From Pseudomonadota bacterium (GTDB lineage Bacteria > Pseudomonadota > Gammaproteobacteria > Acidiferrobacterales > UBA6901): 32,886 nt of DNA. The stretch is from NCBI GenBank assembly GCA_021785515.1, contig JAJYEX010000006.1:1-32886 (forward strand), in the 5' to 3' direction. The position numbers and the translations under genes are program-made. Below are positions 1,095-5,666 of the stretch, piece after piece. Under the pieces are notes generated by a model. That model was not told the origin of the DNA, did not search any database, and saw only the letters and a list, made by a program, of their open reading frames with translations. The stretch's first letter is position 1; every line of letters starts with the position of its first letter.

Positions 1095-4000
1095 ATGAAG
1101 GTGGTAAAGATACAGGAACAGCAGACAGAGATCTTTGAAATTCCCCTCCAGCCAGCTTCCTATGATATTTGGGACAAGAAGTACCGACTTAAATCCAAGG
1201 CCGGAGAGCCTGTGGATCAGGATATTCTGGGCACATTCACCCGCATAGCGCGTGCCCTTGCCGAAGTTGAGGATACCCCTGAAAAACGTACGGAATGGTT
1301 CGACCAGTTTCTCTGGGCCCTGCTAAATGGTGCTATCCCAGCTGGCCGCGTAACGTCCAATGCCGGCGCTCAAGATCACAAACCCGCCACCAGTACGATC
1401 AACTGCACCGTGTCTGGCACCGTTCAGGATTCGATGGACGGAATTTTAAGCGCAGTTCACGAGGCCGGACTGACGTTGAAGGCAGGTTGCGGCATCGGCT
1501 ATGAATTTTCCACCCTGCGTCCCAGGGGGGCGTTCGTGAACGGGGCCGGCGCCTACACATCCGGGCCTCTGTCCTTCATGGACATCTTCAACGCCATGTG
1601 TTTCACCGTTTCTTCTGCCGGCGGGCGACGTGGCGCACAGATGGGGACTTTTGACATCTCGCACCCGGACGCGGCCGCCTTTATCCGGGCCAAGCGCGAA
1701 GACGGGCGCCTGCGCCAATTCAATTTGTCGTGTCTTATATCGGATGAATTCATGCAGGCTGTCAAAAATGACGGCACCTGGGATCTGGCGTTCCCGGCCA
1801 ACCAGTTCGAGTACGATCAACCCGCAACACGCATCGTATGGCGTCACTGGCCATCGGCCCAGGGCTACATTACGAACGAACTGGGTCAGGTCGCCTGCAA
1901 GGTATACAAGAGCTTGCCGGCGCGCCGTCTTTGGGACCTGATCATGGCATCGACCTACGATTATGCCGAACCGGGGTTCATCTTGATTGACCGGATCAAC
2001 GAGATGAACAACAACTGGTTTTGCGAGAATATTCGCGCCACGAACCCGTGTGTAACTGCCGAAACCTGGGTGCATACGGCCAGCGGTCCGCGTCAGGTGC
2101 ACGAACTGATTGGCCGCGGTTTCATTGCACGCCTCAGTGGGGAAAACCATGCCAGCGGCGCTGAGGGATTCTTTCTCACCGCAGTGAAACCTGTGGTGCG
2201 CTTAAGCACCACTGAAGGATACAGCCTGCGGCTTACCCCGGATCATCGCGTACGGCGGATCATCCGTTTCGGTCACGACACCATCGAAACTGAATGGTGT
2301 GCAGCGGGAGATCTGCGTCCGGGCGACCGCGTGGCACTCAATGATCACCGGGCCCTTCCCGAATGGGATGGCAACAATACCCGCGAGCAGGGCTATCTTG
2401 CAGGGCTGCTGGTGGCAGCCGGAAGCTTGGAAGGCAATGCAGCCGCGCTCACGATCCAGACCGTTGCCGTGGCCGCAAATGGAGAGAGAACCGGCATTCC
2501 GGCGAGCATCGAGGCAATCATGGACGGGGCACTGGATGCAGCCAGGGCCTTGTCTCCGGATATGAGCCCCGAATGGTGCAACTTGGGAAGTTCTGGCGAA
2601 TACCGGCTGGAACTTGCCGCGCTGTACGGCCTGGCAACGGATCTCGGCATGAGCTTCAGTTTCGGTGGTAGCGGCCTTAGCCCGGCCGTTGAACGCGCCT
2701 CCAGCGCCTTCTACCGGGGTTTTCTGCGCGGGCTTTTTGACATGGATGGATCCATAGACGGCAAACCGGGCAGAAAGGCGGGCGTACGCCTGATACAACC
2801 TGGACTGGATCAGGCCCAAGCGGTGCAACGCATGCTGCTGCGTCTTGGAATTGGCAGCACAATTCGCAGGTTCCGTGGAATGGGCAATCCGCTCCGTACC
2901 GCAGGCCGGCGGGGCGGCCACAGTGATGGTCACTACCAAATTCTGATCGGCGACCAGCATCTTGTTCGCTTCCGCGATATCGTGGGCTTCAGTGATCATG
3001 CCAGGACGCAAAGGCTGGACGCACTGCTTGCCCACTGCGGTCATAGGCCGAGCGACAGACACTTCACGGCATGTATTCGTGCCATTACCCCTGACGGCAT
3101 TGAGGAGGTTTATGACGTGCAAGTACCCGGCGTCAATGCGTTCGATGCCAACGGTCTGCATGCCCATAACTGCGGCGAGCAGCCGCTGCCACCCTACGGC
3201 TCATGTCTTCTGGGATCGATCAACCTGACCAAGTTCGTCGAGAATCCGTTTACTGCGGAAGCGCGGTTCGACTGGGACCGGTATCGGCGGGTAATTGCGA
3301 TTTTCACGCGTATGCTGGACAACGTGGTGGAAATCAATGGCCTGCCCCTGGCAAAACAGCGTGACGAAATTACCCGCAAACGCCGGCATGGCATGGGCTT
3401 TCTGGGCCTGGGGTCGGCCATGACAATGCTTAGAATGAAGTATGGCGACCCGGACTCCCTGGCATTTACGGAGCGGGTGGCAAGAGAAATGGCCGAAGTC
3501 GGCTGGGAGACAGGGGTCACTCTGGCAGAAGAGAAGGGGCCGGCACCCATTCTGCTTGAGGACTTCACCGTTACCGCGGAAATGCTGGGCAAACGCCCAG
3601 AGATGAAACGCGACGGCTACAAGGTAGGGGACAGGGTGTCCGGGAAAGTGCTCCTGGCGAAATACAGTCGCTACATGCAGAAATTAAGCAAAGCCCTTAC
3701 CGACCGCATAGCCGAGACCGGGGTACGCTTCACCCACCATACGTCGATCGCGCCGACTGGCACAATATCGCTTTCTCTGGCTAACAACGCGAGCAACGGT
3801 ATCGAACCGTCCTTCGCGCACCAGTACAGCCGTAACGTGATCCGAGAAGGGCGCAAGACCAAAGAGAAGGTGGACGTGTACTCCTATGAGCTCCTCGCCT
3901 ACCGCACCCTGGTGAACCCGGATGCCGACCCCAACTCCCAGAACCCGGAATCGGCCCTGCCAGACTATTTTGTCAGCGCCGATACCATCACTCCCCGGCA

Positions 4001-4343
4001 ACATGTAGATGTTCAGGCTGCAGCTCAGAAGTGGGTCGACTCCTCCATTTCCAAGACCGCCAACGTCCCTACGGATTTCCCATACGAGGAATTCAAGGAT
4101 ATCTACATGTACGCCTATGACCAGGGACTAAAGGGTTGCACCACGTTTCGGTTTAACCCCCAGGCCTTCCAGGGAGTCCTGGTCAAGGAAAAAGACCTGG
4201 AAAAGACCATCTATCGTTTCCAGCTGGAAAGTGGGGAGGTCATTGAAGCGAAAGGCAACGACGAGATCGAATATGACGGCGAGACTCACACCGCCGCGAA
4301 CCTCTATGACGCCCTTAAGGAGGGCTATTACGGGAAGTTCTGA
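1095..4343 (+). CDS. nrdJa: Class II (AdoCbl-dependent) ribonucleotide reductase large component, intein-containing
   Basis: Reduces ribonucleotides to deoxyribonucleotides using adenosylcobalamin, without oxygen. The precursor is 1082 residues; removal of the intein (residues 319-692) leaves 708, normal for a class II enzyme lacking its C-terminal part. Visible motifs are one active-site cysteine in NCTVSG (C104), the split catalytic motif N-P-C-G-E rejoined across the intein, the PPYGSCLLGSINL block, an APTGTISL block, and the partner cysteine in GLKGCTTFR (C1015 of the precursor). I chose ATG 1095 because AAGGAGG (1078-1084) precedes it; the in-frame ATG at 1053 has no ribosome site. nrdJb follows after 62 bases, giving the split NrdJa/NrdJb type known from Pseudomonas. 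NrdR boxes upstream imply dATP-responsive repression. Confidence 0.95.
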   Translation: MKVVKIQEQQTEIFEIPLQPASYDIWDKKYRLKSKAGEPVDQDILGTFTRIARALAEVEDTPEKRTEWFDQFLWALLNGAIPAGRVTSNAGAQDHKPATSTINCTVSGTVQDSMDGILSAVHEAGLTLKAGCGIGYEFSTLRPRGAFVNGAGAYTSGPLSFMDIFNAMCFTVSSAGGRRGAQMGTFDISHPDAAAFIRAKREDGRLRQFNLSCLISDEFMQAVKNDGTWDLAFPANQFEYDQPATRIVWRHWPSAQGYITNELGQVACKVYKSLPARRLWDLIMASTYDYAEPGFILIDRINEMNNNWFCENIRATNPCVTAETWVHTASGPRQVHELIGRGFIARLSGENHASGAEGFFLTAVKPVVRLSTTEGYSLRLTPDHRVRRIIRFGHDTIETEWCAAGDLRPGDRVALNDHRALPEWDGNNTREQGYLAGLLVAAGSLEGNAAALTIQTVAVAANGERTGIPASIEAIMDGALDAARALSPDMSPEWCNLGSSGEYRLELAALYGLATDLGMSFSFGGSGLSPAVERASSAFYRGFLRGLFDMDGSIDGKPGRKAGVRLIQPGLDQAQAVQRMLLRLGIGSTIRRFRGMGNPLRTAGRRGGHSDGHYQILIGDQHLVRFRDIVGFSDHARTQRLDALLAHCGHRPSDRHFTACIRAITPDGIEEVYDVQVPGVNAFDANGLHAHNCGEQPLPPYGSCLLGSINLTKFVENPFTAEARFDWDRYRRVIAIFTRMLDNVVEINGLPLAKQRDEITRKRRHGMGFLGLGSAMTMLRMKYGDPDSLAFTERVAREMAEVGWETGVTLAEEKGPAPILLEDFTVTAEMLGKRPEMKRDGYKVGDRVSGKVLLAKYSRYMQKLSKALTDRIAETGVRFTHHTSIAPTGTISLSLANNASNGIEPSFAHQYSRNVIREGRKTKEKVDVYSYELLAYRTLVNPDADPNSQNPESALPDYFVSADTITPRQHVDVQAAAQKWVDSSISKTANVPTDFPYEEFKDIYMYAYDQGLKGCTTFRFNPQAFQGVLVKEKDLEKTIYRFQLESGEVIEAKGNDEIEYDGETHTAANLYDALKEGYYGKF
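2049..3170 (+). other. Intein with LAGLIDADG endonuclease domain, inserted at the catalytic Cys of NrdJa
   Basis: The 374-residue insert begins with Cys (block A, CVTAETWVH), has the block B motif TPDH near residue 65, and ends with NGLHAHN followed by the extein Cys. These are all residues needed for standard splicing: Cys1, TxxH, penultimate His, terminal Asn and Cys+1. The central part resembles a two-motif LAGLIDADG homing endonuclease. Motif 2 is intact (LRGLFDMDGS), but motif 1 reads LAGLLVAAGS and lacks both acidic residues, including the metal-binding Asp. Splicing should be possible; DNA cleavage probably is not. The site, N-P-(intein)-C-G-E, is the thiyl-radical cysteine of the reductase. 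Confidence 0.93.
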
Positions 4344-4405: not shown

Positions 4406-5086
4406 ATGGCAATCAAAATTGACAAGAAAATCACGGGATACGAGGTCTCTAAGGAAGAGGCAAGCGCACAAAAGGCTGACGCTGGCGATTCCAATGTCGT
4501 GCACATGCATGAAAAGCTCGAGCGCCCTGAAACGCTGATAGGGAACACCTACAAGATAAAAACCCCTCTAACCGAACATGCGCTCTATGTCACCATCAAC
4601 GACATAATTCTGAATCCGGGCACACCCCACGAGAAACGCCGTCCTTTCGAGATCTTCATAAATTCGAAGAGCATGGATCACTTCCAGTGGATCGTGGCCC
4701 TGACCCGTATTATCTCGGCCGTGTTCCGCAAGGGCGGAGACGCAACGTTTCTCGTCGAAGAGCTGCGAAGCGTCTTTGACCCCCGTGGCGGATACTTTAA
4801 AAGGGGCAAGTACACCCCGTCTCTGGTCGCCGAGATCGGGGATGCCATAGAGTGCCACATGAAAATGATCGGCATGATCCGCACCGACGAATTAGACGAG
4901 GACAGGCGGAAATTCATCGCCGAGAAACGTGCTGCCCACCACGAGCGATGCGGTGACTCTGAGACTGCAGAAGGTGGCAGCTTTCCCGCTGAGGCCCAGT
5001 TGTGTGCAAAATGTTCCACCAAAGCAGTGATCAAGATGGATGGGTGCATGACCTGTCTCAATTGCGGCGACTCCAAGTGCGGATAA
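4406..5086 (+). CDS. nrdJb: Class II ribonucleotide reductase small component, TSCPD-type with C-terminal cysteines
   Basis: Second half of a split class II ribonucleotide reductase (226 residues; Pseudomonas NrdJb is of similar size). The middle matches the TSCPD-type domain that in unsplit enzymes follows the barrel. The last 30 residues carry six cysteines in CxxC-like spacing (LCAKC, CMTCLNC, SKC). They probably act as the swinging redox arm that re-reduces the active-site disulfide in NrdJa. The start at ATG 4406 follows AAGGAG (4392-4397); an upstream in-frame ATG at 4370 lacks a ribosome site. It is co-transcribed with nrdJa; no clear terminator is seen directly after it. Confidence 0.88.
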   Translation: MAIKIDKKITGYEVSKEEASAQKADAGDSNVVHMHEKLERPETLIGNTYKIKTPLTEHALYVTINDIILNPGTPHEKRRPFEIFINSKSMDHFQWIVALTRIISAVFRKGGDATFLVEELRSVFDPRGGYFKRGKYTPSLVAEIGDAIECHMKMIGMIRTDELDEDRRKFIAEKRAAHHERCGDSETAEGGSFPAEAQLCAKCSTKAVIKMDGCMTCLNCGDSKCG

Positions 5087-5585: not shown

Positions 5586-5666
5586 ATGGCAACGAAGAAG
5601 AAAGCTGCGAAGAAGAAAGCTGCGAAGAAGGCCACCAAGAAAAAGGCCGCCAAGAAGAAGAAGTAA
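5586..5666 (+). CDS. Lysine/alanine-rich histone-like peptide (26 aa)
   Basis: A tiny gene whose product is almost only Lys and Ala (about 15 Lys of 26), built from KKKAA-type units; the codons form an imperfect tandem repeat of AAGAAGAAAGCTGCG. The ribosome site GAAGGAG ends five to six bases before the ATG. A terminator at 5812-5868 follows. Such repeats resemble the C-terminal tails of histone H1 and bacterial H1-like (HC1/AlgP-type) proteins, so DNA or RNA binding by charge is likely; this is inference. It stands alone rather than as the tail of a larger protein. An antisense-rich or glutamate-rich reading in other frames is a shadow of these repeats. Confidence 0.7.
   Translation: MATKKKAAKKKAAKKATKKKAAKKKK

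Follow-up and report, generated by a model that had tools for sequence, protein, structure and literature searches.

An intein with a decayed homing endonuclease, probably still able to splice, at the radical cysteine of the class II ribonucleotide reductase NrdJ

The intein and its host gene

The window, by which we mean the whole stretch of 32,886 nucleotides that was analysed, contains a gene whose product is the class II (vitamin-B12-dependent) ribonucleotide reductase NrdJ, interrupted in frame by an intein (Table 1). The intein occupies residues 319-692 of the precursor, with junctions ATNP/C and HN/CGEQ, the slash marking the point of insertion. The original prediction had placed it at 2049-3170, and these borders are exact: they coincide with the codons of Cys1 (TGT, 2049-2051) and Asn374 (AAC, 3168-3170), and the codon of the +1 cysteine (TGC, 3171-3173) follows in the same frame. 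Inside the intein, the borders of the endonuclease domain were placed by eye.

Table 1. Features of the nrdJ locus, in coordinates of the window
Feature	Coordinates	Strand	Evidence
NrdJ precursor gene	1095-4343	+	TIGR02504 NrdJ_Z 546.7 bits, cut-off 399.95; Pfam PF02867, PF00317
N-extein of NrdJ, residues 1-318, C-terminal end IRATNP	1095-2048	+	TIGR02504 (whole precursor), PF02867, PF00317
Intein, 374 aa, class 1 (Cys1 ... His373-Asn374), in frame	2049-3170	+	PF14528 above cut-off; PF14890 below cut-off; AlphaFold
Splicing domain, N-terminal part, residues 1-105, with Cys1 and T63-P-D-H66	2049-2363	+	102-intein alignment; model strands between residues 7 and 97
LAGLIDADG endonuclease domain (HEN), residues 106-335, decayed	2364-3053	+	28/72 conserved positions lost; highest mean HEN dN of 72
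First LAGLIDADG motif GYLAGLLVAAGSL, residues 115-127	2391-2429	+	column = PI-SceI 218; D in 98/102
Second LAGLIDADG motif GFLRGLFDMDGSI, residues 224-236	2718-2756	+	column = PI-SceI 326; D in 101/102
Splicing domain, C-terminal part, residues 336-374, with D356, H373, N374	3054-3170	+	102-intein alignment
C-extein of NrdJ, first residue +1 Cys, up to stop codon	3171-4343	+	alignment with 1xje position 322
NrdJb-like gene downstream	4406-5086 (listed ORF from 4370)	+	NF006417 match

The +1 cysteine, residue 693 of the precursor, lies in the motif N-P-C-G-E and aligns with position 322 of the Thermotoga maritima NrdJ chain 1xje, which we take to be the thiyl-radical cysteine. On this alignment the intein is inserted directly before the radical cysteine, and the predicted nucleophile of splicing is the radical cysteine itself, as had been proposed. 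It had also been proposed that the enzyme is abolished whenever splicing fails. This holds for NrdJ itself; the cost to the cell is softer than claimed, because the same genome also encodes L131, another class II reductase (574.7 bits for TIGR02504, cut-off 399.95), which has no intein and whose own site, ATNP/CGEIPLPPYGAC, is empty. In this genome, rated 99.92% complete, neither the class I small subunit (PF00268) nor the class III enzyme (PF13597) gave a match; the two profiles matched 7 and 6, respectively, of 14 control genomes. Two other genomes, G048 and G053, carry a paralogous class II reductase with an intein of the same family at its own NP/CGE site (L129, L130).

The gene downstream of nrdJ has its likely start at 4406, preceded by AAGGAGA, which resembles a ribosome-binding site. 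Its product scores 51.1 bits, far under the cut-off of 961, against positions 579-759 of model NF006417, which has 759 residues in all, and is probably the NrdJb partner, or second part, of a split NrdJa-NrdJb class II reductase comparable to that of Pseudomonas aeruginosa. The available text of PMC4520616 describes the split enzyme of that species, reports a unique class II subtype in almost all sequenced class II-bearing gammaproteobacteria, and gives NrdJb a role in thiol-disulfide exchange. At 5586-5666 of the window there is also a very short reading frame rich in lysine and alanine (MATKKKAAKKKAAKK...), similar to a histone tail, with AAGGAG upstream.

The claim that all splicing residues are intact is borne out: Cys1, T63 and H66 of block B (T-x-x-H), D356, H373-N374 and Cys+1 are all present. 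With Cys1, block B, the C-terminal His-Asn, Cys+1 and a splicing domain of the Hedgehog/intein fold, the intein has the characters of class 1. Residues C1, T63, H66 and D356 are invariant among 102 non-redundant same-site inteins, the window's included; H373 and N374 occur together in 98 of them, and the remaining four end in GQ. From these residues and from the predicted fold we infer that the precursor splices: an N-S shift at Cys1, transesterification to the +1 cysteine and cyclisation of Asn374 would yield an intact NrdJ. The loss of cleavage discussed below is deduced on the same grounds. Six loci of other genomes (L009, L010, L160-L163) hold a divergent intein at NP/CGE that ends in Gly-Gln, not His-Asn.

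The intein call is not due to chance, since AlphaFold yields a complete fold of intein plus endonuclease, with a mean pLDDT of 88.5 and values below 50 noted only for residues 141-146 and 281-291. The best solved structural match is the TliVMA intein (7qsu, Z 27.4), and other matches are PI-PfuI (1dq3, Z 26.3), PhoVMA (7qst, Z 23.0) and PI-SceI (1lws, Z 21.9). PI-SceI, TliVMA and PI-PfuI have the same two-domain fold as the window's intein, in other host genes. PI-SceI and PI-PfuI are active endonucleases; so is that of TliVMA, unlike our reading of the window, according to the available text of PMC8966425.

The family of inteins at the same site

In species genomes one scan turned up 378 pattern matches, 228 of which encode relatives. 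We took the best 80 of these 228 relatives, and in all 80 the insertion is at NP/CGE (78 by script, 2 by eye); the highest identity to the window's intein among these best 80 is 56%. The window's intein is a class 1 member of a same-site NrdJ family found mostly in Gammaproteobacteria. The copies of Arhodomonas aquaeolei (L036) and of Rhodanobacter, at the same ATNP/CGEQ site, are 374-377 amino acids long and 47-53% identical to that of the window; unlike it, they keep both catalytic acids. A published relative is the nrdJa intein of Azotobacter chroococcum NCIMB 8003, given in the available text of PMC4465626 as lying in a class II gene, at residues 321-690, with 370 amino acids and an endonuclease of LAGLIDADG_3 type; from these coordinates its site would be that of the window. 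The available part of PMC3653736 contains nothing on the NrdJ NP/CGE site.

When an even sample of the class, 369 genomes, was searched with a profile at E 1e-30 or better, 36 genomes gave matches. All 27 of the strongest matches, found in 26 genomes at E 1e-140 or better, are 1122-1140 bp long; among the 11 weaker ones, two span only about the last 270 positions of the model. The site is empty at 22 loci from 22 genomes of the order. A survey of close relatives for empty sites found three in the genus itself, in G003, G004 and G005; G002, of the same genus, carries the intein.

Phages and plasmids hold no close copy: 8 of 50,697 phage records match, in each case with 28% identity across 39% of the query, and 1 of 72,556 plasmid records matches, 26% identical over 87%. 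In viral contigs a first scan found no relative, and a profile scan found 10, the best of them 46% identical. One of these, L115, 46% identical to the window's intein, is intact and lies at the equivalent site of a reductase; it is possibly a carrier between hosts. Two others, at the same NP/CGE position, are shortened: L120, of 303 amino acids, has both motifs, and L124, of 268 amino acids and 33% identical, is without the first.

The same gene also receives a different intein, of 440 amino acids, at KAGC/GIGYEF (L125:2070-3389, L126:3020-4339, L127:2894-4213 and L134:1722-3041). Its carriers are congeners without the window's intein, plus G055 of the same order, which apparently has both inteins, on two contigs. 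In the G003 copy the acid of the second motif is gone (LIDAGG, against LIDADG in G004). That the KAGC/GIGYEF site might be a redox cysteine was considered and rejected, as it aligns with a glycine in T. maritima NrdJ. Neighbouring inteins are reported, in the available text of PMC10643990, to interfere with each other's homing. Elsewhere in the window's genome (G000), contig C18 holds a dnaB-like gene with an intein (L001) in which the acids of both motifs are recognised by eye (LLGYLIGDGG, LFATDGWA).

Catalytic acids and erosion of the endonuclease domain

A profile alignment places the acid columns of the two motifs on residues 218 and 326 of PI-SceI, presumably its two catalytic aspartates, and is gapless across the motif at 218. 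In the window the acid of the first motif is replaced by Ala124 (codon GCC, 2418-2420), the glycine ahead of it is replaced too (Ala123), and Asp233 of the second motif is retained (codon 2745-2747). Among the 102 non-redundant same-site inteins, position 8 of the first motif is D in 98, N in two (L100 and L110), A in the window and C in G002; position 8 of the second motif is D in 101 and N in one (L084). The first motif had been said to have lost both of its acidic residues. The loss at the column of Ala124 is confirmed; the second is not, because position 6 is never acidic in the sampled family (V 67, I 13, L 10, M 5, T 5, A 2; acidic in 0 of 102), and thus one acid was lost, not two. The second motif had been called intact, and its Asp233, aligned with PI-SceI 326, agrees with this. 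An active LAGLIDADG endonuclease has two acids, one per motif; here the two positions are occupied by Ala124 and Asp233. Of the copies with asparagine, L110 is from Methylobacter marinus, and L100, from the Arenicellales, is heavily decayed.

The endonuclease might still be active if another residue replaced Asp124, or if the true first motif lay elsewhere. There is indeed a new acid nearby: position 128, which is Lys in 90 of the 95 copies that serve as reference, is Glu in the window. However, G002 has Gly at this position, and many further conserved residues are gone. A search for a first motif elsewhere found none better, and the column itself is unambiguous, falling at the end of a predicted helix, 112-124, with the motif aligned to PI-SceI 218 without gaps. 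We consider either possibility extremely improbable.

The extent of the decay was measured at positions with a conservation of 95% or more in the 95 reference copies, 72 in the endonuclease and 47 in the splicing domain. The window has lost 28 of the 72 against 2 of the 47 (Fisher p 9e-6), G002 has lost 19 against 0, and L100 has lost 15 against 1; the reference copies' own losses average 0.73 in the endonuclease (maximum 4) and 0.47 in the splicing domain. Counted separately by halves, the endonuclease of the window has lost 9 of 24 conserved positions in the first and 15 of 38 in the second. The description of this endonuclease as half-decayed is therefore wrong in detail, because the second half, in which Asp233 persists, is eroded as well.

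This erosion bears on another way of reading the retained acid, namely that the endonuclease persists as a strand-specific nicking enzyme, working through its second active site only. In PI-SceI each strand is cut by an active site of its own. Asp231 and Asp233 are retained in the window, G002 and L100, and where an acid is changed, in five non-redundant sequences (the first motif in the window, G002, L100 and L110, the second in L084), the other is always kept. However, a nicking enzyme would have to work with a damaged second half: G002 has lost 10 of the same 38 positions, the window's losses include G243, S251, L284, P285, G287, H296 and E297, and Q250 is also missing in G002. With 39% of the conserved endonuclease positions lost, Asp233 has likely been retained by chance, and we regard the nicking enzyme as very improbable.

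Substitution rates also set the endonuclease domain apart. Its mean dN to other sequences is 0.625 in the window, the highest of 72, and 0.495 in G002, the second highest, with the next at 0.399; the corresponding values for the splicing domain (0.315 and 0.274) and for the exteins (0.227 and 0.228) lie inside the range of the other sequences. For the pair formed by the window and G002, the ratio of endonuclease to splicing-domain dN is 2.74, where 2,392 other pairs have a 95% point of 1.82 and a maximum of 3.14. The catalytic residue is thus lost, the splicing residues are kept, and the relaxed constraint is confined to the endonuclease domain.

Two other measures were tried and set aside. 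The dN/dS of the same pair is about 0.32 in the endonuclease and 0.09 in the splicing domain, a comparison weakened by near-saturated synonymous sites; as sole proof of relaxation it is not decisive and cannot single out the window, because the endonucleases of some pairs that retain both acids equal or exceed it (L079-L114, 0.384; L069-L087, 0.406). Net charge gives no support for a loss of DNA binding, the endonuclease of the window having +2 where the mean is 4.15 (SD 3.37). Individual basic residues have nevertheless disappeared, in keeping with decay: of 14 positions with Lys or Arg in 90% or more of the 95 references, 6 are no longer basic in the window, 8 in G002 and 7 in L100.

The losses tend to fall on the same positions. 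The window and L100 have 12 of the 72 in common, where 5.8 are expected (p 4e-4), including D124, R182, K208, R277, L284, P285 and R332; the window and G002 have 14 in common (7.4 expected), and G002 and L100 have 9 (4.0 expected). Because L100 sits elsewhere in the intein tree, the excess probably reflects not only common descent but functional positions (R182, K208, R277, L284, P285 and R332 among them) that were freed after catalysis was lost. The tips of this tree, in changes per column, measure 1.47 for the window, 1.22 for L100, 0.67 for G002 and 0.087 for L110, with a median of 0.36 over 42 rows. With Asn124 and a short tip, L110 seems to have been affected recently or mildly.

The window and G002 may share an ancestral loss, as they group together in the intein tree with an SH-aLRT of 96 (from a quick search that carries a long-branch warning). 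However, the same replacement is found in only one of their 14 common losses, and the excess between the window and L100 is equally great. In the extein tree, the window, G002 and the clade of G003-G005 are unresolved inside the genus. A synonymous clock was rejected as a demonstration of vertical inheritance: the proportions of synonymous difference between the window and G002 (0.65 in the endonuclease, 0.69 in the splicing domain and 0.63 in the exteins) stand beside medians of 0.68-0.71, 0.67-0.73 and 0.65-0.67 for these two against the other 70 sequences. Since the sites are close to saturated, the clock carries no information on age, or on whether the loss was shared or independent.

The probable stage of the homing cycle and the alternatives

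Judging from sequence comparison and the predicted fold, we think it very probable that this intein can splice but no longer home, and so has reached the decay phase of its homing cycle. The degeneration stage named in the original prediction is thus supported by the alanine in a column of aspartates, by the unequal losses in the two domains, and by congeners with empty sites. The endonuclease would no longer make a double-strand break at intein-free nrdJ, and the intein would therefore now be inherited vertically while its endonuclease drifts. Such a degeneration phase is described in the available texts of PMC1654191, PMC3229294 and PMC8966425. The counterpoints are that the endonuclease fold is confidently predicted and has suffered no large deletion, that Asp233 is kept, that the net charge of the domain is ordinary, that the ratio of endonuclease to splicing-domain dN between the window and G002 stays under the highest value of the other pairs, and that the dN/dS of the endonuclease between these two is well below 1.

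The closest precedent is PhoVMA, of Pyrococcus horikoshii (7qst), whose LAGLIDADG domain is retained in its architecture and catalytically dead, as that of the window probably is. According to the available text of PMC8966425, PhoVMA has lost active-site residues of both motifs, together with a turn of the second helix, where the window has lost one acid; cleavage tests are reported there for PhoVMA, and the window is known from its sequence and a predicted fold. The same text presents domain mutualism for other inteins.

Domain mutualism offers the main alternative to the decay phase: the endonuclease domain would be retained as structural support of splicing, its catalysis lost and its fold kept. 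The fold predicted intact and a dN/dS below 1 are consistent with this, as is the absence of shortened copies among close cellular relatives, that is, among the 27 strongest matches in 26 of the 369 class genomes. Yet the shortened relatives L124 and L120, at the same site in viral contigs, argue against a general rule, and so may the two weaker class matches that cover only the end of the model. Moreover, searches favour full-length copies, and splicing requires an open reading frame in any case. Retention as a support is, in our estimation, unlikely. The stronger claim, that the decayed endonuclease is an obligatory scaffold for splicing at a site preceded by proline and followed by the radical cysteine, is quite unlikely; if true, it would explain why the decayed cellular copies are full-length instead of mini-inteins.

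An intein in the decay phase fits the homing-cycle model and leaves it unchanged, this stage of the intein life cycle being already known. The interest of the NP/CGE site is that it presents a graded series at one position of one gene: many intact copies, copies with a single changed acid (L110, L084), heavily decayed full-length copies (the window, G002, L100), shortened copies on viral contigs (L120, L124), and empty sites within the genus. With this series one can follow which parts of an intein endonuclease break down first, and test whether splicing at an active-site cysteine needs the endonuclease domain as a scaffold.
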